Below are positions 242-30,714 of a stretch of 36,049 nucleotides of DNA, piece after piece (positions within the stretch are counted from its first letter, which is position 1; every line of letters starts with the position of its first letter). The notes below the pieces were generated by a model that saw nothing but the letters and a program-made list of their open reading frames with translations, was not told where the DNA came from and searched no databases. The DNA is taken from NCBI GenBank assembly GCA_905479635.1, contig CAJQNG010000040.1, positions 1 through 36,049 on the forward strand, in the 5' to 3' direction. The translations under genes were made by a program, and so were the position numbers. This stretch comes from an uncultured Boseongicola sp. (GTDB taxonomy: Bacteria > Pseudomonadota > Alphaproteobacteria > Rhodobacterales > Rhodobacteraceae).

Positions 242-757
242 GTGCAGAACGACGGAGCTGGCGCAGTGAAGTTCGGTGTGCTGGCAGATCTATTTGAGGG
301 CGCCGGGGCGAAGGTGCTGACCGAGGTTGAGATTAACCGACAGAGGTCAAACCAGCACGAGTTTCAGGGCGTCAGTGGGTTCCGGGAGTTTCTGGGTACA
401 CCTGCAGAAAAACAGACGTTTCCTGCGACCTTTTACTGGCTGGGGGATGACGAAGACACCGAACCGGTAAAGGTCGGTTCGCTCTGCGCCTTGAGTGATG
501 TCCGTCGTGAACAGCCCGGGCGCAGCCCCGAGTGTCATTTGTACTACGCGGCTGGCTCTGAGCCAGTCGTCCATCGAGCCCGTGCGGGGGATCAGGTTGT
601 TATTGCTCGCGGTAAGGACGGCCCTGTAGCTCAATTCAAACACTCCACTCAACTCGATCAGAGGCAATACACAGTCCAAAACCTGATTTTCGCGCGAGAG
701 AATAACGATCTGGATTCAGAATGCCTGATCTGCCAAAGGTCAGTGGTGACAGCGTAA
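242..757 (+). pseudogene. EcoRII-like type II restriction endonuclease, N-terminal fragment
   Basis: The first ~130 residues (VKFGVLADLFEGAGAKVL, then SNQHEFQGV, then FYWLGDDED and the ARAGDQVVIARGKDG stretch) resemble, from memory, the N-terminal region of EcoRII-type restriction endonucleases. In that family the region is a DNA-binding pseudobarrel placed before the nuclease domain. Family members run to about 400 residues. Here similarity stops near residue 135 and the last ~40 residues run antisense through the end of the convergent epimerase-like gene, so no catalytic domain is present. Start codons could be GTG 242 or GTG 266; the second removes eight non-family residues. No partner methyltransferase is visible. 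It is probably a non-functional remnant. The family call is moderate; truncation is clear if the family is right. Confidence 0.5.
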
Positions 758-1745
758 GATCTTGCTTTAGCAGAATCTTACCGAAAGCGCCTTCTCGGGC
801 TAGCGGGCTCTTGCCTAGTGCGTGCCCGACAGTCATCGCCGCTCGGGTTAGCAGACTGGTTTCACCCACGTGCGCCCCAAGAATCACGCTCATACCTCGA
901 GCGTGTGCAGCTTGCGCAAGCTCAATTGAGCGTAGAAGGCCACCGCATTTAGATACGCGGACATTTGCAACCCAGCTGTCTGGCTGCCCCGAATACTGAT
1001 CAAGTTGAGAGGCATTGATGAGGCTTTCATCAAGAATAATAGCGACACCCAGTTCTTGGGATATCCTTTGCATTCCAGAGACATCACCTACGGAAAGTGG
1101 CTCCTCAATAGCCCAGACATTGCGGTCAATTGCGTTGATGTGCTCTATGCATACCTCTGGTTCTTTCCACAGATTATTCGCATCGACACGAATTGTCGCG
1201 TGTTGGGGTAACCGGGCGAGCTTTTGCTTGTCACGCTCGAGGTTGGTGTTCAGCTTGATCTTGAAATCGGACAGCCCCACAACTGAGTATGCAAATGCCA
1301 CGATGCCGGTTTTTAGAGGTGAGCTGTCACCAAGCACAGCGCTGTAGCGCATCGGGGCACGCAAAGGCGGATACCCAAGATATTCCTCGATCGACAACCC
1401 ATCACGCCGCGCAAGAAAATCCAATAGCGCCATCTCGACGGCGGCGAAAGCCGCTGGATTCTGAGATACTTGAGTTTCATGAGATTCGATCCACTCCCGA
1501 ATTGTCGATTGATCCGCGCAAGACTCAACAAGGTTGGGCCCGTACTTAGAGACAAATACCTGAGCGGTTTCTTCAGTTTCTCCGGTAACATAACTTCGCG
1601 GGCAACCTTCACCAAATCCGCTGATCCCACTTCGATCGGAAACCTCCACAATAATATTAGATGTTGCTGCACGAGAAGCAGACGCATGAGAAAATCGGAA
1701 TCGAAATTTGCTGGGAAAATGCCCCCATCTCAGGACCGGCGACAT
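636..1745 (-). CDS. Enolase-superfamily enzyme, dipeptide epimerase / N-acylamino acid racemase-like
   Basis: This 369-residue protein is a member of the muconate-lactonizing-enzyme subgroup of the enolase superfamily. The capping domain is followed by the barrel with all expected residues: KIK (Lys162/Lys164), metal ligands Asp188 (RVDANN), Glu214 (IEEP) and Asp239 (ILDES), and Lys266 (VSKCGG). This two-lysine pattern is that of 1,1-proton-transfer enzymes such as L-Ala-D/L-Glu epimerase and N-succinylamino acid racemase, which invert the alpha carbon of an acylated or peptidyl amino acid; o-succinylbenzoate synthase shares it. Its ATG overlaps the stop of the upstream GH3 gene (TGATG), so the two are probably translationally coupled. 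The 3' end overlaps the convergent restriction-enzyme fragment. Superfamily and catalytic residues are clear; the substrate is not. Confidence 0.85.
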   Translation of the reverse strand: MSPVLRWGHFPSKFRFRFSHASASRAATSNIIVEVSDRSGISGFGEGCPRSYVTGETEETAQVFVSKYGPNLVESCADQSTIREWIESHETQVSQNPAAFAAVEMALLDFLARRDGLSIEEYLGYPPLRAPMRYSAVLGDSSPLKTGIVAFAYSVVGLSDFKIKLNTNLERDKQKLARLPQHATIRVDANNLWKEPEVCIEHINAIDRNVWAIEEPLSVGDVSGMQRISQELGVAIILDESLINASQLDQYSGQPDSWVANVRVSKCGGLLRSIELAQAAHARGMSVILGAHVGETSLLTRAAMTVGHALGKSPLAREGAFGKILLKQDLTLSPLTFGRSGILNPDRYSLARKSGFGLCIASDRVEWSV

Positions 1746-3433
1746 CAGCGTGACCCGTCAGGAGATGTTGCATCTTCCAAGACTACCCAGGGGGCAAGCT
1801 TTGCTGACCAGTCTCGCTGATAGCCTAGGATGACGGGTTTGTATTGCGCTTCTCGCACTCCTGCTGCCACGCTTTGGTCTCGCAATGCGCTCATTGTTCC
1901 CGGCTTTAGTCGTCGCCCAATCAAGGGATAAATTCGATCGCTTGCACGTTTGTCTGCGTATTCGCTGTTCACTACTTGAAGCTGCTGGTCCACGAATGCA
2001 GCAAAGGCATTTGGGTCAGCTCCACCATCAGTTTCGATCAGAAATTCATACCTTGCTGCCGTCTCGTCAGCGAGAAACATGTAACCACTGACAGAGAGCC
2101 CCAAAGAGGAGATCAACGTGGACGCAGCCGTAATTACTTGATGCTCGCTGAGCTTCTCGCCCGTAATATTTGTAACGCCGCGTCCCTTCTGCAGAAAGCT
2201 CAGGCTTGGACAGGCTCCGATGCCGGTTTTGGCGCGCAAAAGATCATTGATATTATAGCGATAGAGGCCTGACTGAGTTGTAACAAAGACATAATATTCT
2301 TTGCCGTGTACTAGCTCATGGATTCCCATGAAGTGTTGTCTGTTTTCATCCCAGTCTTCACGCAAAACGAATTCGTACACGTGCTCGGTAATCAAGGGCA
2401 TACAAATATTTGAAAGGGCATCGAAATTGAATGTGCCCATGAATTCGCTTGCGGCGTATCCGTATTCCACAACCTTCACTGAGGCGGGTAGATTGTGGCG
2501 AAGTTTTGAAAGAGCGACGCCGCAACTTCCGCCAGTCCAAGTTGCAATCGCCGCGAGTCTTGGCCACACGATTTCCGGCGACAATCGAGAGTCAGTCTCA
2601 AGCGCCTGACGCAGACTTAGCAATCTCCCAGGCTCTATTTTCTGAAAGATTTCGCCGACTACCGAAACAACGGATGGATGAAGGTTTTTGGCCGAGCGGG
2701 TTTCAAGCGCATCAAGAAGTAGTTCCTGATCAGCCTCAATAATCTCGCAGACTTTTAAAATAGAAGAAGGGTTCGCCGTTCCAATGCCGCTGATATCGGA
2801 GCGTGACAAAGCTGCTAGTGCGTAGACCTGATACTTCGCCGCGACGTCGCAAATCTCAAAGGTTTGAGCGGGAATAGCGAACTTTGCGGCGAGAAGGCGC
2901 GGGAGCGATTTATAGGCACTTCCCGAACTGGATCCGTAAGCGACACCGTTTTCCAGGCGCCCTTCGATCGGTGGGCTGGCCATTCCTAGAATTGCCCCCG
3001 AGAAGAACCCGGTGCTTTGCCATGTAGACAAAGACAATAGTCGTTGAGTTAAACGCATCTGACGCAGCCCGTTTTGGGTCACTGGTATAAACTTGCTTCT
3101 TCCAGTCGTTCCGCTGGTCTTGGCGCAATATACAGTTGGCTCGATGGTGAGAGCAGACTCACCTGATATTTGTCGTTCGATATACGGTTGCAGAGTATCA
3201 AATGTCTGCACCGGCACATTTTCACGAAACGATTTCATGTCGTGGATGGCTGCAAAGTTATGCCGTCTTCCAAAATCTGTTTCGGCATTTGCAGCGACAA
3301 TTTTCAACAATAGTTTTTCCTGCACTTTCGCAGGGTCAGCGAAGGCTTTTTCGATCGGACCGCGATACACAGACAAAATCCAATACATCCCGAGACCTAT
3401 CAGTCGGTTTGTGATCGCGCCGGAGGCAATCAT
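1745..3433 (-). CDS. GH3-family acyl-acid amido synthetase
   Basis: The 562-residue protein has the features of the GH3 family, adenylating enzymes of the firefly-luciferase superfamily that activate a carboxylic acid with ATP and join it to an amino acid amine. The three nucleotide-binding motifs are visible: TSGTTGRSKFIPV (about 106-118), VEYGYAASEFMG (about 322-333) and YRYNINDLLR (about 391-400). Plant members conjugate hormones such as auxin and jasmonate; bacterial members are mostly uncharacterised. The start ATG overlaps the stop of the upstream desaturase-like gene by 4 bases and its own stop overlaps the next start, so the three genes form a coupled unit. The acyl substrate and amino acid cannot be read from sequence. 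I see no frameshift or missing motif. Confidence 0.88.
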   Translation of the reverse strand: MIASGAITNRLIGLGMYWILSVYRGPIEKAFADPAKVQEKLLLKIVAANAETDFGRRHNFAAIHDMKSFRENVPVQTFDTLQPYIERQISGESALTIEPTVYCAKTSGTTGRSKFIPVTQNGLRQMRLTQRLLSLSTWQSTGFFSGAILGMASPPIEGRLENGVAYGSSSGSAYKSLPRLLAAKFAIPAQTFEICDVAAKYQVYALAALSRSDISGIGTANPSSILKVCEIIEADQELLLDALETRSAKNLHPSVVSVVGEIFQKIEPGRLLSLRQALETDSRLSPEIVWPRLAAIATWTGGSCGVALSKLRHNLPASVKVVEYGYAASEFMGTFNFDALSNICMPLITEHVYEFVLREDWDENRQHFMGIHELVHGKEYYVFVTTQSGLYRYNINDLLRAKTGIGACPSLSFLQKGRGVTNITGEKLSEHQVITAASTLISSLGLSVSGYMFLADETAARYEFLIETDGGADPNAFAAFVDQQLQVVNSEYADKRASDRIYPLIGRRLKPGTMSALRDQSVAAGVREAQYKPVILGYQRDWSAKLAPWVVLEDATSPDGSR

Positions 3434-4809
3434 TTGTCTGTCGCGTCCGTTGGCGTTGTAAACGGCGCCATGAGTTGGGCGCGAAAACTGTTGGGCCAGT
3501 TTCGATTTTCAATTCCGACGCGCCCAACTTCACGGTCCGCCGGTAGATACCGGGTTCCAAAAATCGTATCCCATATAATAAGGTTGTTGCCATAGTTCGA
3601 ATTTGCTTCTGATATCTTCGCTGAATGATGCCATCTGTGTAGCTCAGGGCCGGCAATGATATAGTTGAGCGGCCCGAGCTTAACCTCAGCGTTTGAGTGT
3701 TGATAAAAGCCATTGATGGCATAAAGGACAAAATACGTTCCGAACACTTCAGGGCTTACGCCCAGCAATAAGAAAGGCGCTGTGTCTCCAAGGAACTGTA
3801 TTGCTTTGTCAAATGGATGAAATCGACCAACATTGATCGTGTAAAGTTTGTCAGATGCGTGGTGTACCGCATGAAGACGCCAAAGTGGGCCATAGACATG
3901 AAGCGCCCGGTGTATCCAGTAGCGAAAGAACTCCGCCACCACCAACATTAGCATGATTTGAACCAGTATAGGCGCCTCGTGTGGCCAAAAGCCAGTTATC
4001 GCAACCACTTCGCTTTGGGAGACGCCCACAAGAATTGCCAAAGTCAGCGCTTTCAATGTGACCGGGACACCTATCTGAACAAAAGCAACGAAAAGCCCGT
4101 CCTGAACTACTTCCTTAAGAAGAGGGCGCCAGTCCTTGCGTGCAGGCGCAAGAGTCTCGTGCAGGATAATTCCAACCAACCCTAGAAGCGCGCTCAGATA
4201 AGATGAGAAGAGAAGTGGTGCGCCGGTGTCTCGCAGCCAGACGTACATTGTAAATCCGCTTATGATCAGGATCGGATAGGCAGCTACAGCCGCAATCTTG
4301 CGGGCCAAATGCTCCCAGAATGTGGAAGGTTCTTCGGCCGTTAGAAGCGTGCCCAATGTCAGCAGAAAAGCAGCCAATATGAAGTGAAATGCGGATGATA
4401 CCGCTCCATCAAACCACGACGATGAAGACAACTCGAGAAAGCCGACAACCATTCGCAAAAACATGACTAGTGCATAAACGAACGCTGCAATCTTGAGTGC
4501 GCGGCCAAGGCGAGGTCTCCGAGTATTTGGGCTAACCGCCCAAGTAACGGTGAGCATTGTCAAAAATATCAGTATCTGGAGGCCTAATAAAACCGGATAG
4601 GGCATGGTGTCGGTATGCCATAGATCAAAGCGCGGCAATCCGTCCAAATCGCGGTTGAGTTGCAGGTACTGCGCGATGATCCGGAGAGAAAATATGAAAC
4701 TGAGTGCTACCAGTATTGGCCGCAGAAGTTGTGAACAGTCGCCGTTTTGTGTCTCGTTCATCAAGGAAGCATCCCTTTGTTTTTGTTCGGGAACGGCACG
4801 TAGTTTCAT
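3430..4809 (-). CDS. Sterol desaturase / fatty acid hydroxylase-superfamily membrane protein
   Basis: A 459-residue integral membrane protein. The C-terminal half carries the di-iron histidine clusters of the family: HRALH (300-304), HAVHH (313-317) and HRWHH (391-395), plus single histidines in between (for example in GRFHPF). Members hydroxylate or desaturate lipids, sterols and related hydrophobic chains at the membrane. The first ~190 residues add several extra hydrophobic segments, making it longer than the common ~250-300-residue members. The start is uncertain: ATG at 4809 or ATG at 4761 (MNETQNG), the latter preceded by an AAAGGG about 11 bases upstream. It overlaps the GH3 gene by 4 bases (ATGA). 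The substrate is unknown; from context it may modify the acyl chain of the GH3 product. Confidence 0.85.
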   Translation of the reverse strand: MKLRAVPEQKQRDASLMNETQNGDCSQLLRPILVALSFIFSLRIIAQYLQLNRDLDGLPRFDLWHTDTMPYPVLLGLQILIFLTMLTVTWAVSPNTRRPRLGRALKIAAFVYALVMFLRMVVGFLELSSSSWFDGAVSSAFHFILAAFLLTLGTLLTAEEPSTFWEHLARKIAAVAAYPILIISGFTMYVWLRDTGAPLLFSSYLSALLGLVGIILHETLAPARKDWRPLLKEVVQDGLFVAFVQIGVPVTLKALTLAILVGVSQSEVVAITGFWPHEAPILVQIMLMLVVAEFFRYWIHRALHVYGPLWRLHAVHHASDKLYTINVGRFHPFDKAIQFLGDTAPFLLLGVSPEVFGTYFVLYAINGFYQHSNAEVKLGPLNYIIAGPELHRWHHSAKISEANSNYGNNLIIWDTIFGTRYLPADREVGRVGIENRNWPNSFRAQLMAPFTTPTDATDK

Positions 4810-4887
4810 GGCTCAAAGCCACGAACTATGGGCATTACTCAGTTTCCGTTGTGTTTGTGTCTCGAAGCAAGAGAGCTGATTGTCATT

Positions 4888-5199
4888 TCAACGAAATCTG
4901 CATTCCGCCGCCTGTCCGGCATATGCAGAGCTGCGGGTATCGTTGAAGCCGGGCAGAAGGCAGGCTGCGAAGGTGCTGAAAAGCGCGTCGCGGGTGGGCT
5001 TCATAAACTTAGTTGATGAAGCGCCGGGCAAGGGATTGTCTGCAGCGCACCCGGAAAGAGCGACTGCGGCTCCAAGCGCCGCCACGGCAAGGAAGCCTCT
5101 GAATGAGCCCCGGCGATCGGCGCAATCAAGATCAGCGGATCCATCAAGTGTATCTGAACCCGTGGTTCCGACTGGCTTTGTGGAGTAAATTACATTCAT
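4888..5199 (-). CDS. Small lipoprotein-like or exported protein, first gene of the operon
   Basis: The ORF track extends to 5271, but ATG 5199 is the likely start because it is preceded by a good ribosome binding site (GGAGG, 6 bases upstream) and lies just downstream of a recognisable promoter. The 103-residue protein has a 28-residue hydrophilic lead, then RRGSFRGFLAVAALGAAVALSGC. This is a hydrophobic segment ending in a lipobox-like LSGC, with a twin-arginine-like RR ahead of it. The remaining ~50 residues (KPTRDALFSTFAACLLPGF) match nothing I recognise. The long hydrophilic lead is unusual for a plain Sec lipoprotein. It may be the N-terminal remnant of a larger exported protein, since the C terminus ends without any visible domain. 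Confidence 0.5.
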   Translation of the reverse strand: MNVIYSTKPVGTTGSDTLDGSADLDCADRRGSFRGFLAVAALGAAVALSGCAADNPLPGASSTKFMKPTRDALFSTFAACLLPGFNDTRSSAYAGQAAECRFR

Positions 5200-5216: not shown

Positions 5217-5237
5217 TATATGAACACCGTTCAAATA
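5217..5237. promoter_or_regulatory. TetR-type operator 1 (imperfect palindrome)
   Basis: TGAAC-ACC-GTTCA at 5221-5233 is a dyad with matching flanking bases out to 5217/5237. It lies immediately downstream of the -10 element of the minus-strand promoter, over the expected transcription start, where a bound repressor would block initiation. It shares the half-site TGAAC with operator 2. Assignment to a TetR-family regulator is inference from operator style; no regulator gene is seen in this window. Confidence 0.6.
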
Positions 5238-5239
5238 AA

Positions 5240-5268
5240 TTGTTACGCGCGCGGCGATCGCGAGTCAA
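5240..5268 (-). promoter_or_regulatory. Sigma70-type promoter of the GH3 operon
   Basis: On the minus strand TTGACT (5268-5263) is followed after exactly 17 bases by TAACAA (5245-5240), a good match to a housekeeping promoter. It points at the 103-residue lipoprotein-like gene and the coupled genes behind it. The two operator palindromes flank it on both sides. Confidence 0.6.
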
Positions 5269-5273
5269 CAAAT

Positions 5274-5292
5274 AAATGAACGACGTTCATTT
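5274..5292. promoter_or_regulatory. TetR-type operator 2 (perfect 19-bp palindrome)
   Basis: AAATGAACGACGTTCATTT is a perfect 19-base palindrome centred on 5283. It sits just upstream of the -35 element of the minus-strand promoter, with its centre 56 bases from the centre of operator 1. Spacing and shared half-sites suggest a repressor binding both sites. Confidence 0.65.
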
Positions 5293-23757: not shown

Positions 23758-25107
23758 ATGATAGAAGAGACTTGGGGTAACATCCGCGGCGAGCTTTTGA
23801 AGTCCGTTGGTAGGAACAACTACGCAAATTGGATCGAGCCCCTTGAATTTTCCGCGCTGACGGATGGCGTCGCGACGTTCCTGGTGCCAACGCAATTCAT
23901 GGGAAATTGGGTTTCGCGCAACTTTGGCGAGCAAATTTTGCAGGAGCTGTCGAATGCCGGGCAAAGCGTGTCGCGGGTAGAGTTTTCTGTCCCAAGGCAA
24001 GCGTTGGCGCCGCGCCGCCAACCCGCCGTGAGGCCGAAGCCGACAGTCATCAACGATGGGGAAGATCTGCCGGGAGCGCCGCTTGATGGACGCTTTACGT
24101 TCGATACCTTTGTCGTCGGGAAGCCAAATGAATTGGCTCATGCGGCGGCGCGCCGTGTGGCCGAAGGCGGTCCGGTCACGTTTAATCCACTGTTTCTCTA
24201 TGGCGGCGTAGGGCTTGGTAAGACGCACCTGATGCATGCTATTGCCTGCGAGCTTCAGCGTCGCGAGCAGGGCTTGCGGATTGTGTATTTGTCGGCCGAG
24301 CAGTTCATGTACCGTTTTGTGCAGGCCTTGCGCGACAAAGATATGATCACGTTTAAGCAGCTATTCCGGTCGGTCGATGTGCTGATGATTGACGACGTGC
24401 AGTTCATTGCTGGCAAGGATGCGACGCAGGAAGAGTTCTTTCATACGTTTAACGCGCTTGTCGATCAGGGAAAGCAAATCGTTATCTCGTCAGACCGTGC
24501 TCCGACAGAGATTACCGGGGTCGAGGACCGTATTCTGAGCCGGCTTCAATCCGGACTGGTCGTCGATCTACACCCGACAAACTACGAGCTTCGGCTTGGA
24601 ATTCTTCAGCAGAAAGTTGAACATTACTCTGAGCAATTCCCGAACCTGGAGATTGCGAACGGTGTGCTTGAGTTCCTTGCCCATCGTATCTCGTCGAATG
24701 TTCGGGTTTTGGAAGGCGCCATGATGCGGTTATTTGCATTTGGCGCGCTTGTCGGGCGTGAGATTACACTCGAGCTGGCTCAGGATTGTTTGTCTGATAT
24801 CCTGCGGCACTCGGATCGAAAGATCACGGTGGAAGAAATTCAGCGCAAAGTGAGCGACCACTATAATATCCGGCTTAGCGATCTTATCGGACCAAAGCGC
24901 GTGCGAACCTTTGCGCGCCCGCGTCAGGTTGCGATGTATCTTGCGAAAACGATGACAAGTCGTTCGCTTCCTGAGATCGGGCGCCGTTTTGGCGGGCGCG
25001 ACCATACGACTATTATGCATGGCGTGCGCAAGATCGAAGAGTTGAAGCAACAAGACAGCCAGATAGCAGACGATCTTGAACTTTTGCGCCGGTCTCTCGA
25101 GGGGTGA
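23758..25107 (+). CDS. dnaA: Chromosomal replication initiator protein DnaA
   Basis: A 449-residue initiator. Domain I (WGNIRGELLKSVGRNNYANWIEPLEF) is at the N terminus, followed by a short linker. The AAA+ domain has Walker A (GGVGLGKTHLMHAI), Walker B (VDVLMIDDVQFIAGK) and sensor segments, and domain IV carries the DNA-recognition signature GGRDHTTIMHGVRKIEEL. It opens the replication origin as an ATP-bound oligomer. ATG 23758 is preceded by TAGG 5 bases upstream. It is followed by dnaN after a 166-base gap containing two hairpins. I did not see a cluster of TTATCCACA boxes around it. Confidence 0.97.
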   Translation: MIEETWGNIRGELLKSVGRNNYANWIEPLEFSALTDGVATFLVPTQFMGNWVSRNFGEQILQELSNAGQSVSRVEFSVPRQALAPRRQPAVRPKPTVINDGEDLPGAPLDGRFTFDTFVVGKPNELAHAAARRVAEGGPVTFNPLFLYGGVGLGKTHLMHAIACELQRREQGLRIVYLSAEQFMYRFVQALRDKDMITFKQLFRSVDVLMIDDVQFIAGKDATQEEFFHTFNALVDQGKQIVISSDRAPTEITGVEDRILSRLQSGLVVDLHPTNYELRLGILQQKVEHYSEQFPNLEIANGVLEFLAHRISSNVRVLEGAMMRLFAFGALVGREITLELAQDCLSDILRHSDRKITVEEIQRKVSDHYNIRLSDLIGPKRVRTFARPRQVAMYLAKTMTSRSLPEIGRRFGGRDHTTIMHGVRKIEELKQQDSQIADDLELLRRSLEG

Positions 25108-25110
25108 CAG

Positions 25111-25131
25111 GCGGGGGACGCTGTCTCCCGC
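25111..25131 (+). terminator. Stem-loop immediately after dnaA
   Basis: GCGGGGGAC (25111-25119) pairs with GTCTCCCGC (25123-25131), a 9-bp stem with one G.U pair and a 3-base loop, beginning 4 bases after the dnaA stop. No T-run follows, so it would be a weak or factor-dependent terminator, or an mRNA-stabilising structure. Confidence 0.45.
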
Positions 25132-25173
25132 GCGCTGCTGAGTATTCCAGTTAAAAAGAAAGCCACCGAGGCA

Positions 25174-25193
25174 CTTGACGCTTTGGCGTCAAG
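25174..25193 (+). promoter_or_regulatory. Stem-loop in the dnaN leader
   Basis: CTTGACGC (25174-25181) pairs perfectly with GCGTCAAG (25186-25193) with a 4-base loop, 80 bases before the dnaN start. It could be an operator-like dyad or leader structure. Function unknown. Confidence 0.4.
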
Positions 25194-25273
25194 GCAGGAA
25201 AGTCCCTCAAATTCCATTGCATGCAGCGGAAAACCGGATAAGTTGTTCGTCCGGCATCTTAGGGAGCGTGGAC

Positions 25274-26392
25274 ATGAAATTTTCTATCGAACGTAGCGCT
25301 TTGCTGAAGGCCGTTGGTCAGGCGCAATCGGTGGTCGAGCGCCGCAATACCATCCCAATCCTTGCGAACGTTTTGATTGAGGCCGAGGGTGATCAAGTCA
25401 GGTTTCGCGCGACCGATCTCGATATCGAGGTCGTTGACGAAGCGGCTGCGAAGATTGAACGTGCCGGCGCCACGACAGTAAGTGCTGTGACACTTCACGA
25501 GATCGTTCGAAAACTTCCTGACGGGTCTTTGGTGACTCTCACGGACGACGGAGCGTCTGGACGCCTGACAGTTGAGGCAGGACGGTCGAATTTTTCGCTT
25601 GCGACGCTGCCGCGCGAGGACTTCCCGGTCATGGCTTCGTCAGAGTACGAAGCAAACTTCGTTTGTCCCGCCCCGGTTTTGCGGCGGTTGTTCGATAAGT
25701 CTAAATTTGCGATTTCGACCGAGGAAACGCGATACTATCTGAACGGTGTCTATATGCATATTGCGGATGCAAATGGCGGGCAGGTTCTGCGTTGTGTAGC
25801 AACCGATGGCCATCGACTGGCGCGGATCGATGCGGATATGCCGGCGGGCGCCGAGGGCCTGCCGGGCGTCATCGTGCCACGCAAAACGGTTGGTGAGTTG
25901 CGCAAGTTGCTGGATGACGACGAAGCTGAGATCGCTGTATCCGTTAGTGAAACGAAGATCCGCTTCGCGGCGCCAGGAATCACGCTGACGTCTAAGGTTA
26001 TCGATGGAACATTCCCCGACTATACGCGCGTCATTCCTACCGGAAACACGCGTCGTCTGGAAGTAGACGCAGCTGAGTTCGCGAAGGCCGTTGACCGGGT
26101 CGCGACAGTTTCATCCGAACGCTCGCGGGCGGTGAAACTCTCGCTGGATGAAGATCGGCTGGTTTTATCTGTAAATGCTCCTGATAGTGGAGCCGCAGAA
26201 GAAGAGCTGGCGGTGGCTTATGGCGACGAAGCTCTCGAGATTGGATTTAATGCGAAGTACTTGCTTGAGATTGCAAGTCAGGTTGATCGAGAAAATGCGG
26301 TATTCTTGTTCAATTCTGCGGGTGACCCCACATTAATGCGTGAAGGCAACGACGAATCTGCAGTTTATGTTGTGATGCCAATGCGTGTCTAA
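25274..26392 (+). CDS. dnaN: DNA polymerase III beta sliding clamp
   Basis: ATG 25274 (MKFSIERSALLKAV) is the family start, with AGGGAG 7 bases upstream; the track start at 25175 adds 33 residues read from the leader hairpin. The 372-residue product has three clamp domains. Recognisable parts are ERRNTIPILANVLIEA near the N terminus, YYLNGVYMH and VATDGHRLA in the middle, DGTFPDYTRVIP, and the C-terminal YVVMPMRV that helps form the partner-binding pocket. It encircles DNA to make the replicase processive. Confidence 0.97.
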   Translation: MKFSIERSALLKAVGQAQSVVERRNTIPILANVLIEAEGDQVRFRATDLDIEVVDEAAAKIERAGATTVSAVTLHEIVRKLPDGSLVTLTDDGASGRLTVEAGRSNFSLATLPREDFPVMASSEYEANFVCPAPVLRRLFDKSKFAISTEETRYYLNGVYMHIADANGGQVLRCVATDGHRLARIDADMPAGAEGLPGVIVPRKTVGELRKLLDDDEAEIAVSVSETKIRFAAPGITLTSKVIDGTFPDYTRVIPTGNTRRLEVDAAEFAKAVDRVATVSSERSRAVKLSLDEDRLVLSVNAPDSGAAEEELAVAYGDEALEIGFNAKYLLEIASQVDRENAVFLFNSAGDPTLMREGNDESAVYVVMPMRV

Positions 26393-26455
26393 GCACCGCT
26401 CGGTACCATCCTCGCAACGAGCGGAAGTGGTATTGCAAAAAGGAAGGGCAGGGTG

Positions 26456-27556
26456 ATGCCCGGTTGTTTTGTCACATCATTGACGATTTCTCATTTTCGG
26501 TCTCACAAGGTGACGCGGCTTTCGTTGGATAGCCGTCCTGTTGTCTTTCATGGAGCGAATGGCGCCGGAAAGACCAACGTTCTGGAGGCGGTATCGCTTT
26601 TGTCCCCGGGGCGCGGGTTGAGGCGCGCGGGCGTTGAGGAATTGATCCGAAGACCCGAAGCGCTGGGCTGGAAGATAAGCGCCGAGGTCGAAGCGGATGG
26701 CCGTTTGCATGAACTTGAGACTGGCGCTGAACCGGGGCAGTCTCGAAGCGTTCGGGTTGACGGCAAAGCGCATCCGCAGCTGGCCTTGGGCCGTGTAGCG
26801 CGCGTTATTTGGCTGGTGCCTGCTATGGATCGCCTGTGGCTTGAAGGTGCGGAAGGTCGGAGGCGCTTTCTGGACCGGATGACTATGAGTTTCTTGCCGG
26901 ACCACGCCGAGACTGTATTGGCTTATGACAAGGCAATGCGAGAACGGAACCGATTGTTGAAGGACATGGTCCGCGATGCGCATTGGTATCAGGTTCTGGA
27001 GCGCCAAATGGGCGAGGCCGGTGCGACGATTATGTCGAACCGGCGCGCGACTTTGGAGCGATTGGCGCAAGCACGGGATGGCGCAGAAACCGCATTTCCG
27101 GCAGCGGAGCTTTCGCTGACGCACCCGAACGAAGATTTGCCTGTAACCCCAGGCGAGCTTACGGATGCGCTGCAGACTGGGCGCGTGGCCGATTTGCGGG
27201 CCGGGCGCACCCTTGTCGGGCCGCACCGGATAGATATGCACGCGGTCTTTGCTCAGAAAGCAATTGCAGCAGAACAGTGTTCAACCGGCGAGCAAAAGGC
27301 TCTGCTGATATCACTGGTGCTCGCCAACGCACGGGCCTTGGCTGAAGACACAGGTGCGCCGCCTTTGATCCTGTTGGACGAAGTTGCAGCGCATCTGGAC
27401 GCCAGACGGCGTCAGGCCCTCTATGATGAGATTTGTGCGCTCAGAGCGCAGGCCTGGATGACCGGCACCGGGCCGGAGTTGTTTGACGGACTTGGCGCGC
27501 GCGCACAGATATTCGAGGTCGTTGACGCCAACGATGCGTCACAGGTCCGACCATGA
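26456..27556 (+). CDS. recF: DNA replication and repair protein RecF
   Basis: A 366-residue SMC-like ATPase that helps load RecA at gaps. Walker A is GANGAGKTNVLEAV near the N terminus, the signature is CSTGEQKALLISLVLA and Walker B is LILLDEVAAHLD. ATG 26456 follows AGGAAGGGCAGG; a GTG three bases earlier is the ORF-track start. Its last four bases (ATGA) overlap the start of the LysE-family gene, so those two are translationally coupled. Confidence 0.95.
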   Translation: MPGCFVTSLTISHFRSHKVTRLSLDSRPVVFHGANGAGKTNVLEAVSLLSPGRGLRRAGVEELIRRPEALGWKISAEVEADGRLHELETGAEPGQSRSVRVDGKAHPQLALGRVARVIWLVPAMDRLWLEGAEGRRRFLDRMTMSFLPDHAETVLAYDKAMRERNRLLKDMVRDAHWYQVLERQMGEAGATIMSNRRATLERLAQARDGAETAFPAAELSLTHPNEDLPVTPGELTDALQTGRVADLRAGRTLVGPHRIDMHAVFAQKAIAAEQCSTGEQKALLISLVLANARALAEDTGAPPLILLDEVAAHLDARRRQALYDEICALRAQAWMTGTGPELFDGLGARAQIFEVVDANDASQVRP

Positions 27557-28173
27557 CGATCTCACTTTCGGATGCGGCCCTCTATGCTGGGGCATTGTTC
27601 ATCCTGTTTTTGACGCCGGGGCCCGTCTGGGTGGCCCTTATGGCCCGTGCTATGTCAGGTGGCTTTCGGTCGGCGTGGCCACTTGCGATGGGCGTTGTCG
27701 TGGGGGATGTCATTTGGCCGTTGGTAGCGATCCTGGGCGTGACTTGGATTGTCTCGGTATTCGACGGGTTCATGGTGGTTCTAAAGTGGGTTGCCTGTTT
27801 CACTTTCTTGACCATGGGCTACCTCCTTATTCAAAGTGCCGGAAAAGCCATCGCCAAAGACAGCCGATTGACCCAGCCGGGAATGTGGGCGGGGTTTGTT
27901 GCCGGGCTCGCCGTGATCCTTGGCAATCCAAAGGCAGTCCTTTTCTACATGGGCGTTTTGCCAGGCTTCTTTGATCTTACGCAACTGACTGGCGCGGACA
28001 TTGCGGTGATCTGTGCGTTATCCTTTGCTGTGCCGTTGGCGGGAAACCTAATTCTTGCTGGATTTGTCGACCGAGCGCGTCGGTTGCTGACGTCTCCAAA
28101 GGCGCTGAAACGGATGAATATCGTATCGGGCGCGTTGCTTATTACGGTGGGAATTATCATTCCGTTCACCTGA
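27553..28173 (+). CDS. LysE/RhtB-family amino acid exporter
   Basis: A 206-residue inner-membrane protein with about six hydrophobic segments. It has the family N-terminal pattern FLTPGPVWVALMARAMSGG, GVVVGDVIW and the conserved LGNPKAVLFYMGVLPGF. Members export amino acids or related metabolites by proton exchange. The gene overlaps recF by 4 bases and sits between recF and gyrB, an unusual insertion into a conserved replication block. Its substrate cannot be predicted. Confidence 0.88.
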   Translation: MTISLSDAALYAGALFILFLTPGPVWVALMARAMSGGFRSAWPLAMGVVVGDVIWPLVAILGVTWIVSVFDGFMVVLKWVACFTFLTMGYLLIQSAGKAIAKDSRLTQPGMWAGFVAGLAVILGNPKAVLFYMGVLPGFFDLTQLTGADIAVICALSFAVPLAGNLILAGFVDRARRLLTSPKALKRMNIVSGALLITVGIIIPFT

Positions 28174-28188
28174 GGTTTTGCCAGATAG

Positions 28189-30714
<2,526 letters not shown>

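Follow-up and report, generated by a model that had tools for sequence, protein, structure and literature searches.

Paired palindromes at a lipid-enzyme operon promoter of an uncultured Boseongicola point to a pspA-linked TetR repressor

Which regulator acts at a promoter that is bracketed by two copies of the same dyad, and to what response does the operon behind it belong? The promoter in question lies in an uncultured Boseongicola sp. of the Rhodobacteraceae (assembly GCA_905479635.1, contig CAJQNG010000040.1), within a stretch of 36,049 nucleotides that we refer to as the window, and reads on the minus strand into genes for a predicted lipoprotein and three putative lipid enzymes. By comparing this promoter with those of related genomes, we arrive at the proposal, to which we assign a probability of about 0.82, that the dyads are operators for a repressor of a pspA-linked TetR subfamily and that the operon belongs to a membrane-stress and lipid-repair regulon.

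Two dyads around one promoter

Operator O1, AAATGAACGACGTTCATTT, occupies positions 5274..5292 (exact match, no strand assigned) upstream of the -35 box and reads on the minus strand as AAATGAACGTCGTTCATTT (5292-5274). A sequence-only reading of this DNA had called O1 a perfect 19-bp palindrome; its location and arms hold, and only the centre base breaks the perfection. The second putative operator, TGAACACCGTTCA (5221..5233, exact match, likewise unstranded), lies immediately 3' of the -10 box, covering the expected transcription start, and on the minus strand this dyad (5233-5221) is contained in TTGAACGGTGTTCA. The core dyads, exact TGAAC-N3-GTTCA at 5277-5289 and 5221-5233, are the only two in the window and stand 56 bp apart. 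Their centres, GTC and GGT, are both of the form R-N-Y, the form that dominates in the sites of the TetR subfamily described below.

Between the dyads, sequence inspection and a promoter scan place a -35 box TTGACT (5263..5268, minus strand) and a -10 box TAACAA (5240..5245, minus strand), separated by a 17-bp spacer as in a sigma-70-like promoter. The -10 hexamer is weak, and the scan recovered the same promoter with the alternative AACAAT (5244-5239) and an 18-bp spacer (9/12 matches; mean of 0.3 in shuffles). Downstream of the second dyad follow a ribosome-binding site, GGAGG, and the ATG at 5199 on the minus strand. The arrangement first described for this promoter, TTGACT-17-TAACAA flanked by two TGAAC-N3-GTTCA dyads, is confirmed in its coordinates and exact matches.

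The source assembly spans 3.16 Mb and is 70.8% complete. It contains three exact copies of TGAAC-N3-GTTCA, two of them those in the window, compared with two for the reversed control; a lone exact site is therefore about what chance supplies genome-wide, whereas a pair 56 bp apart around one promoter is not chance. The third copy (contig C236) is solitary and lies within an open reading frame (ORF), and we took it to be a chance occurrence. With up to two mismatches allowed, TGAACGNCGTTCA returned 186 near matches against 149 for the reversed control, which are mostly noise, and the extended form AATGAACGNCGTTCATT occurred in none of the 396 other sampled genomes of the family.

A TetR subfamily that shares the palindrome

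A search of 347 alphaproteobacterial genomes with the core palindrome, ATGAACGNCGTTCAT, matched three: the window's own genome, G970 and G1034. The G970 match falls within coding sequence and was set aside as chance. The G1034 match, which has 20 consecutive bases in common with the window at O1, lies directly behind a tetR gene, and a second exact site lies directly before the same gene. With the G1034 TetR as query, relatives were found in 52 of 199 genomes of the window's family (E 1e-10). Together with G1034 itself, 32 TetR loci were compared, and their 110 kb hold 91 exact sites against 0 for the reversed control. Because every locus other than the first was picked by protein similarity and not by its DNA, this association of site and regulator constitutes a test that is independent of the window. 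At least one exact site is present at 29 of the 32 loci, and two of the three site-free loci belong to TetRs that are among the most distant; the earlier suggestion of a TetR-family regulator is hence supported by one particular subfamily in independent genomes. Core identity alone proves nothing, as the ten core bases were fixed by the way in which sites were collected; the centres of these sites follow R-N-Y in about 90% of half-sites.

The usual neighbour of these regulators is pspA, which adjoins tetR at 24 of the 32 loci, all 24 of them carrying sites. Across the TetR loci, 22 site pairs are spaced 56–58 bp apart, and most of them bracket the pspA promoter, a spacing that includes the 56 bp of the window pair; a third site is often found at the -35 region of pspA promoters in loci where tetR and pspA are joined. 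At locus L069 the pspA promoter runs TGAACAGCGTTCA, TTGACC, TGAACAGCGTTCA, pspA, which is the window's layout, and TTGAC is found at the equivalent place both there and in the lipoprotein promoter of the same-genus genome G004.

G004 is 99% complete, and 1.86 Mb of it (about 46%) was read for sites, yielding 6 exact sites against 0 for the control. Three operator-type sites precede its pspA, with no tetR beside that gene. Its TetR (L142:13761-14357) is 36% identical to that of G1034 (E 2e-31), and one site lies directly upstream of the gene. Elsewhere, two sites 54 bp apart surround a TTGACT promoter that is followed by a homologue of the window lipoprotein (58% identity over 72 amino acids [aa]), and behind this lies a gene for a 1131-aa LplT-acyltransferase-Aas fusion associated with lysophospholipid repair. 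In agreement with the earlier expectation that the regulator would be encoded elsewhere, this lipoprotein operon is not linked to the TetR gene, which carries a site of its own. Since the G004 homologue sits under the same two-site promoter, promoter and lipoprotein are, by this comparison, a conserved unit behind which the lipid enzymes differ: LplT-Aas in G004 and a hydroxylase-GH3-enolase set in the window.

GAAC/GTTC half-sites are found in several regulator families, so a regulator of another family might bind the window dyads and their resemblance to TetR sites be coincidental. We consider this extremely improbable, given that one TetR subfamily is accompanied in other genomes by these ten core bases, the centre preference and the 56-bp bracket, and that a homologous lipoprotein lies under the same promoter in G004. 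The TetR subfamily also has a solved structure. The G004 protein matches 3CJD, a TetR-family repressor with a TetR_C_33 domain, over nearly its full length (E 2e-68). The open-access literature yielded no operator, target, ligand or function for 3CJD, and the operators and targets proposed here would give the subfamily a role.

A proposed membrane-stress regulon and its competitors

For binding, repression, inducer and lipid product alike, we infer the following scheme. TetR dimers on O1, beside the -35 box, and on the second dyad, over the expected start, would exclude RNA polymerase and keep the promoter shut, and binding of a membrane or lipid ligand by TetR would release it. The derepressed operon would then supply the small lipoprotein together with three enzymes that may synthesize or modify a membrane lipid of the N-acyl amino-acid (ornithine-lipid-like) type. 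Other members of the regulon in the genus would be pspA and the lipoprotein-LplT-Aas operon, and the window operon would probably be switched on together with membrane repair. A quorum signal had been named earlier among the conceivable inputs. With pspA and the LplT-Aas lysophospholipid-repair gene as the shared targets, membrane or lipid stress appears the likelier signal. In Ruegeria pomeroyi, loss of aminolipids is accompanied by an increase in membrane-stress proteins (PMC9938194), a finding that lends plausibility to a link of aminolipids with membrane stress.

Several results weigh against this proposal. The assembled 70.8% of the window's genome yielded neither PspA nor any relative of the G1034 TetR, and no exact site lies in the flanks of the nine TetR genes that were detected there. 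The lipoprotein operon of G004 occupies a different chromosomal place from that of the window. Finally, relatives of the three-enzyme cassette in Alphaproteobacteria, Verrucomicrobiales and a Chromatiales metagenome-assembled genome (MAG) keep the enzymes, and operator sites were not found with them. The sequence-only reading had looked to a further copy of the site near a regulator gene as its check; such copies are present in relatives (G1034, G004 and the family loci), and none occurs in the assembled part of this genome. The cognate TetR gene presumably lies in the unassembled part.

The same absences would fit a relic, in which loss of the TetR from the species has left a constitutive promoter: TetR and PspA were not found in the assembled part, where this site pair alone remains. 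We judge such a loss quite improbable, because the assembly is just 70.8% complete and because each dyad has kept its ten core bases intact along with the favoured centre, which is unlikely without selection.

A regulon of this kind resembles phage-shock-protein (PSP) systems in having the membrane-repair protein PspA/IM30 as its central target. A 2024 phage-shock survey gives PspF, LiaRS or ClgR as the regulators of known PSP systems and, in the text searched, carries no mention of TetR (PMC11237479), whereas we propose here a TetR repressor, paired operators and lipid-enzyme operons as extra targets. Repression by TetR proteins through paired operators is well known. In the open-access literature we found no description of a PspA and lipid-repair regulon under TetR control, which is weak evidence of absence, and nothing relevant on the motif or on TetR with pspA in this group. 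A broader generalization, which we advance tentatively and hold at somewhat less than even odds, is that the PspA membrane-repair response across much of the family is run by a lipid-sensing TetR in place of a PspF-type activator, with exchangeable lipid modules behind the conserved promoter and lipoprotein: LplT-Aas in one species and a new N-acyl amino-acid lipid, made by an OlsE-like, GH3 and epimerase-like set, in another. For a large alphaproteobacterial family, the comparison supplies a candidate regulator of the membrane-stress response together with candidate operators and targets, and it would tie an uncharacterized lipid-synthesis operon to membrane damage, offering a hint at the purpose of its product.

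The operon and its chromosomal setting

The first gene of the operon (4888..5199, minus strand) encodes the predicted lipoprotein of 103 aa, with a GGAGG ribosome-binding site and a lipobox-like LSGC; domain-family searches gave no family match. The second (3430..4809, minus strand) encodes a membrane enzyme of the fatty-acid-hydroxylase superfamily (PF04116) with histidine boxes HRALH, HAVHH and HRWHH. Its nearest named family is OlsE, against which (NCBIfam NF052566) it scores 192 bits, under the cut-off of 475. On the minus strand at 4800-4830, the annotated start codon of this gene falls within a strong RNA hairpin (z-score of -3.3 for the 101-nt fold), which could possibly reflect translational control or a repeat element.

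The third gene (1745..3433, minus strand) encodes a GH3-family enzyme (PF03321, PF23571, PF23572) nearest to OlsH, an N-acyl amino-acid ligase, although its 87 bits against the OlsH model (NF052613) fall below the cut-off of 620. The last (636..1745, minus strand) encodes an epimerase-like enzyme of the muconate-lactonizing subgroup of the enolase superfamily (PF02746, PF13378). Its closest solved chain is the dipeptide epimerase 3jva (2e-22), and it scores under the cut-offs of all NCBIfam equivalog models, those for dipeptide epimerase and N-acylamino acid racemase included. Catalytic-type motifs KIK, D188, E214, D239 and K266 can be read from its sequence; the predicted lysine pair and D-E-D metal ligands place the enzyme at 636-1745 in the superfamily subgroup and leave its substrate undefined. 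An enolase-superfamily-like gene, named by eye, also occurs upstream of tetR at L053-L055, L062 and L063, in a position unrelated to that in the window.

The ends of the hydroxylase, GH3 and enolase-superfamily genes overlap, and a plausible product of the set is a hydroxylated, possibly epimerized N-acyl amino-acid (ornithine-lipid-like) membrane lipid. OlsH has been shown to produce N-acyl ornithine (PMC12493201). The planctomycete OlsH ornithine-lipid pathway and OlsE provide the nearest named families for the GH3 enzyme and the hydroxylase, both far under their cut-offs; compared with the OlsH pathway, the window has no OlsI or OlsG beside these genes and has the epimerase-like enzyme instead. 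It is possible that the cassette represents a new N-acyl amino-acid lipid pathway.

Where the operon came from bears on a further alternative, namely that a TetR paralogue of the same DNA specificity was acquired with the operon, or evolved for it, and controls this operon only, sensing its substrate or product. From 5812 to 34160 the window is largely collinear with contig C38 of G004 at 75–80% DNA identity. At the operon's place G004 has an integrase-like ORF (L124:1493-2734, named by eye) beside an alpha/beta-hydrolase gene, opposite window position ~5737. The integrase-like ORF suggests that the operon sits at a variable insertion site, consistent with acquisition, and to that extent it favours a dedicated paralogue. 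Such a paralogue would also fit the earlier idea that the pathway product may be the signal. None of the window's larger ORFs was recognized as a TetR gene, G004 shares the lipoprotein and the promoter and not the enzymes, and the cassette relatives lack the sites, from which it follows that cassette and operator do not move together. We therefore regard a dedicated paralogue as unlikely and favour control by the pspA-linked TetR subfamily.

The three-enzyme cassette (636-4809) is conserved, recurring in other Alphaproteobacteria, Verrucomicrobiales and the Chromatiales MAG mentioned above. Among these relatives, the L009 gene is directly preceded by a one-mismatch site, which we considered too weak to count. 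The window GH3 gene was not found among the 396 other family genomes (at E 1e-40), and four genomes of the same genus, three of them incomplete, likewise gave no match. The GH3 protein gave no match to viral contigs, and neither the promoter DNA nor the lipoprotein matched any plasmid searched. A distant version of the cassette occurs in G514 and G717 (L043 and L044), two further genomes of the phylum that encode a GH3 enzyme of 35–38% identity with similar neighbours, and in G717 hydroxylase-like and GH3 sequences are present in a single open frame of 860 aa. Farther along the window, dnaA, dnaN, a RecF-like gene and gyrB stand in a row (23758-30714), and on account of this row a position of the window close to the chromosome origin is probable.
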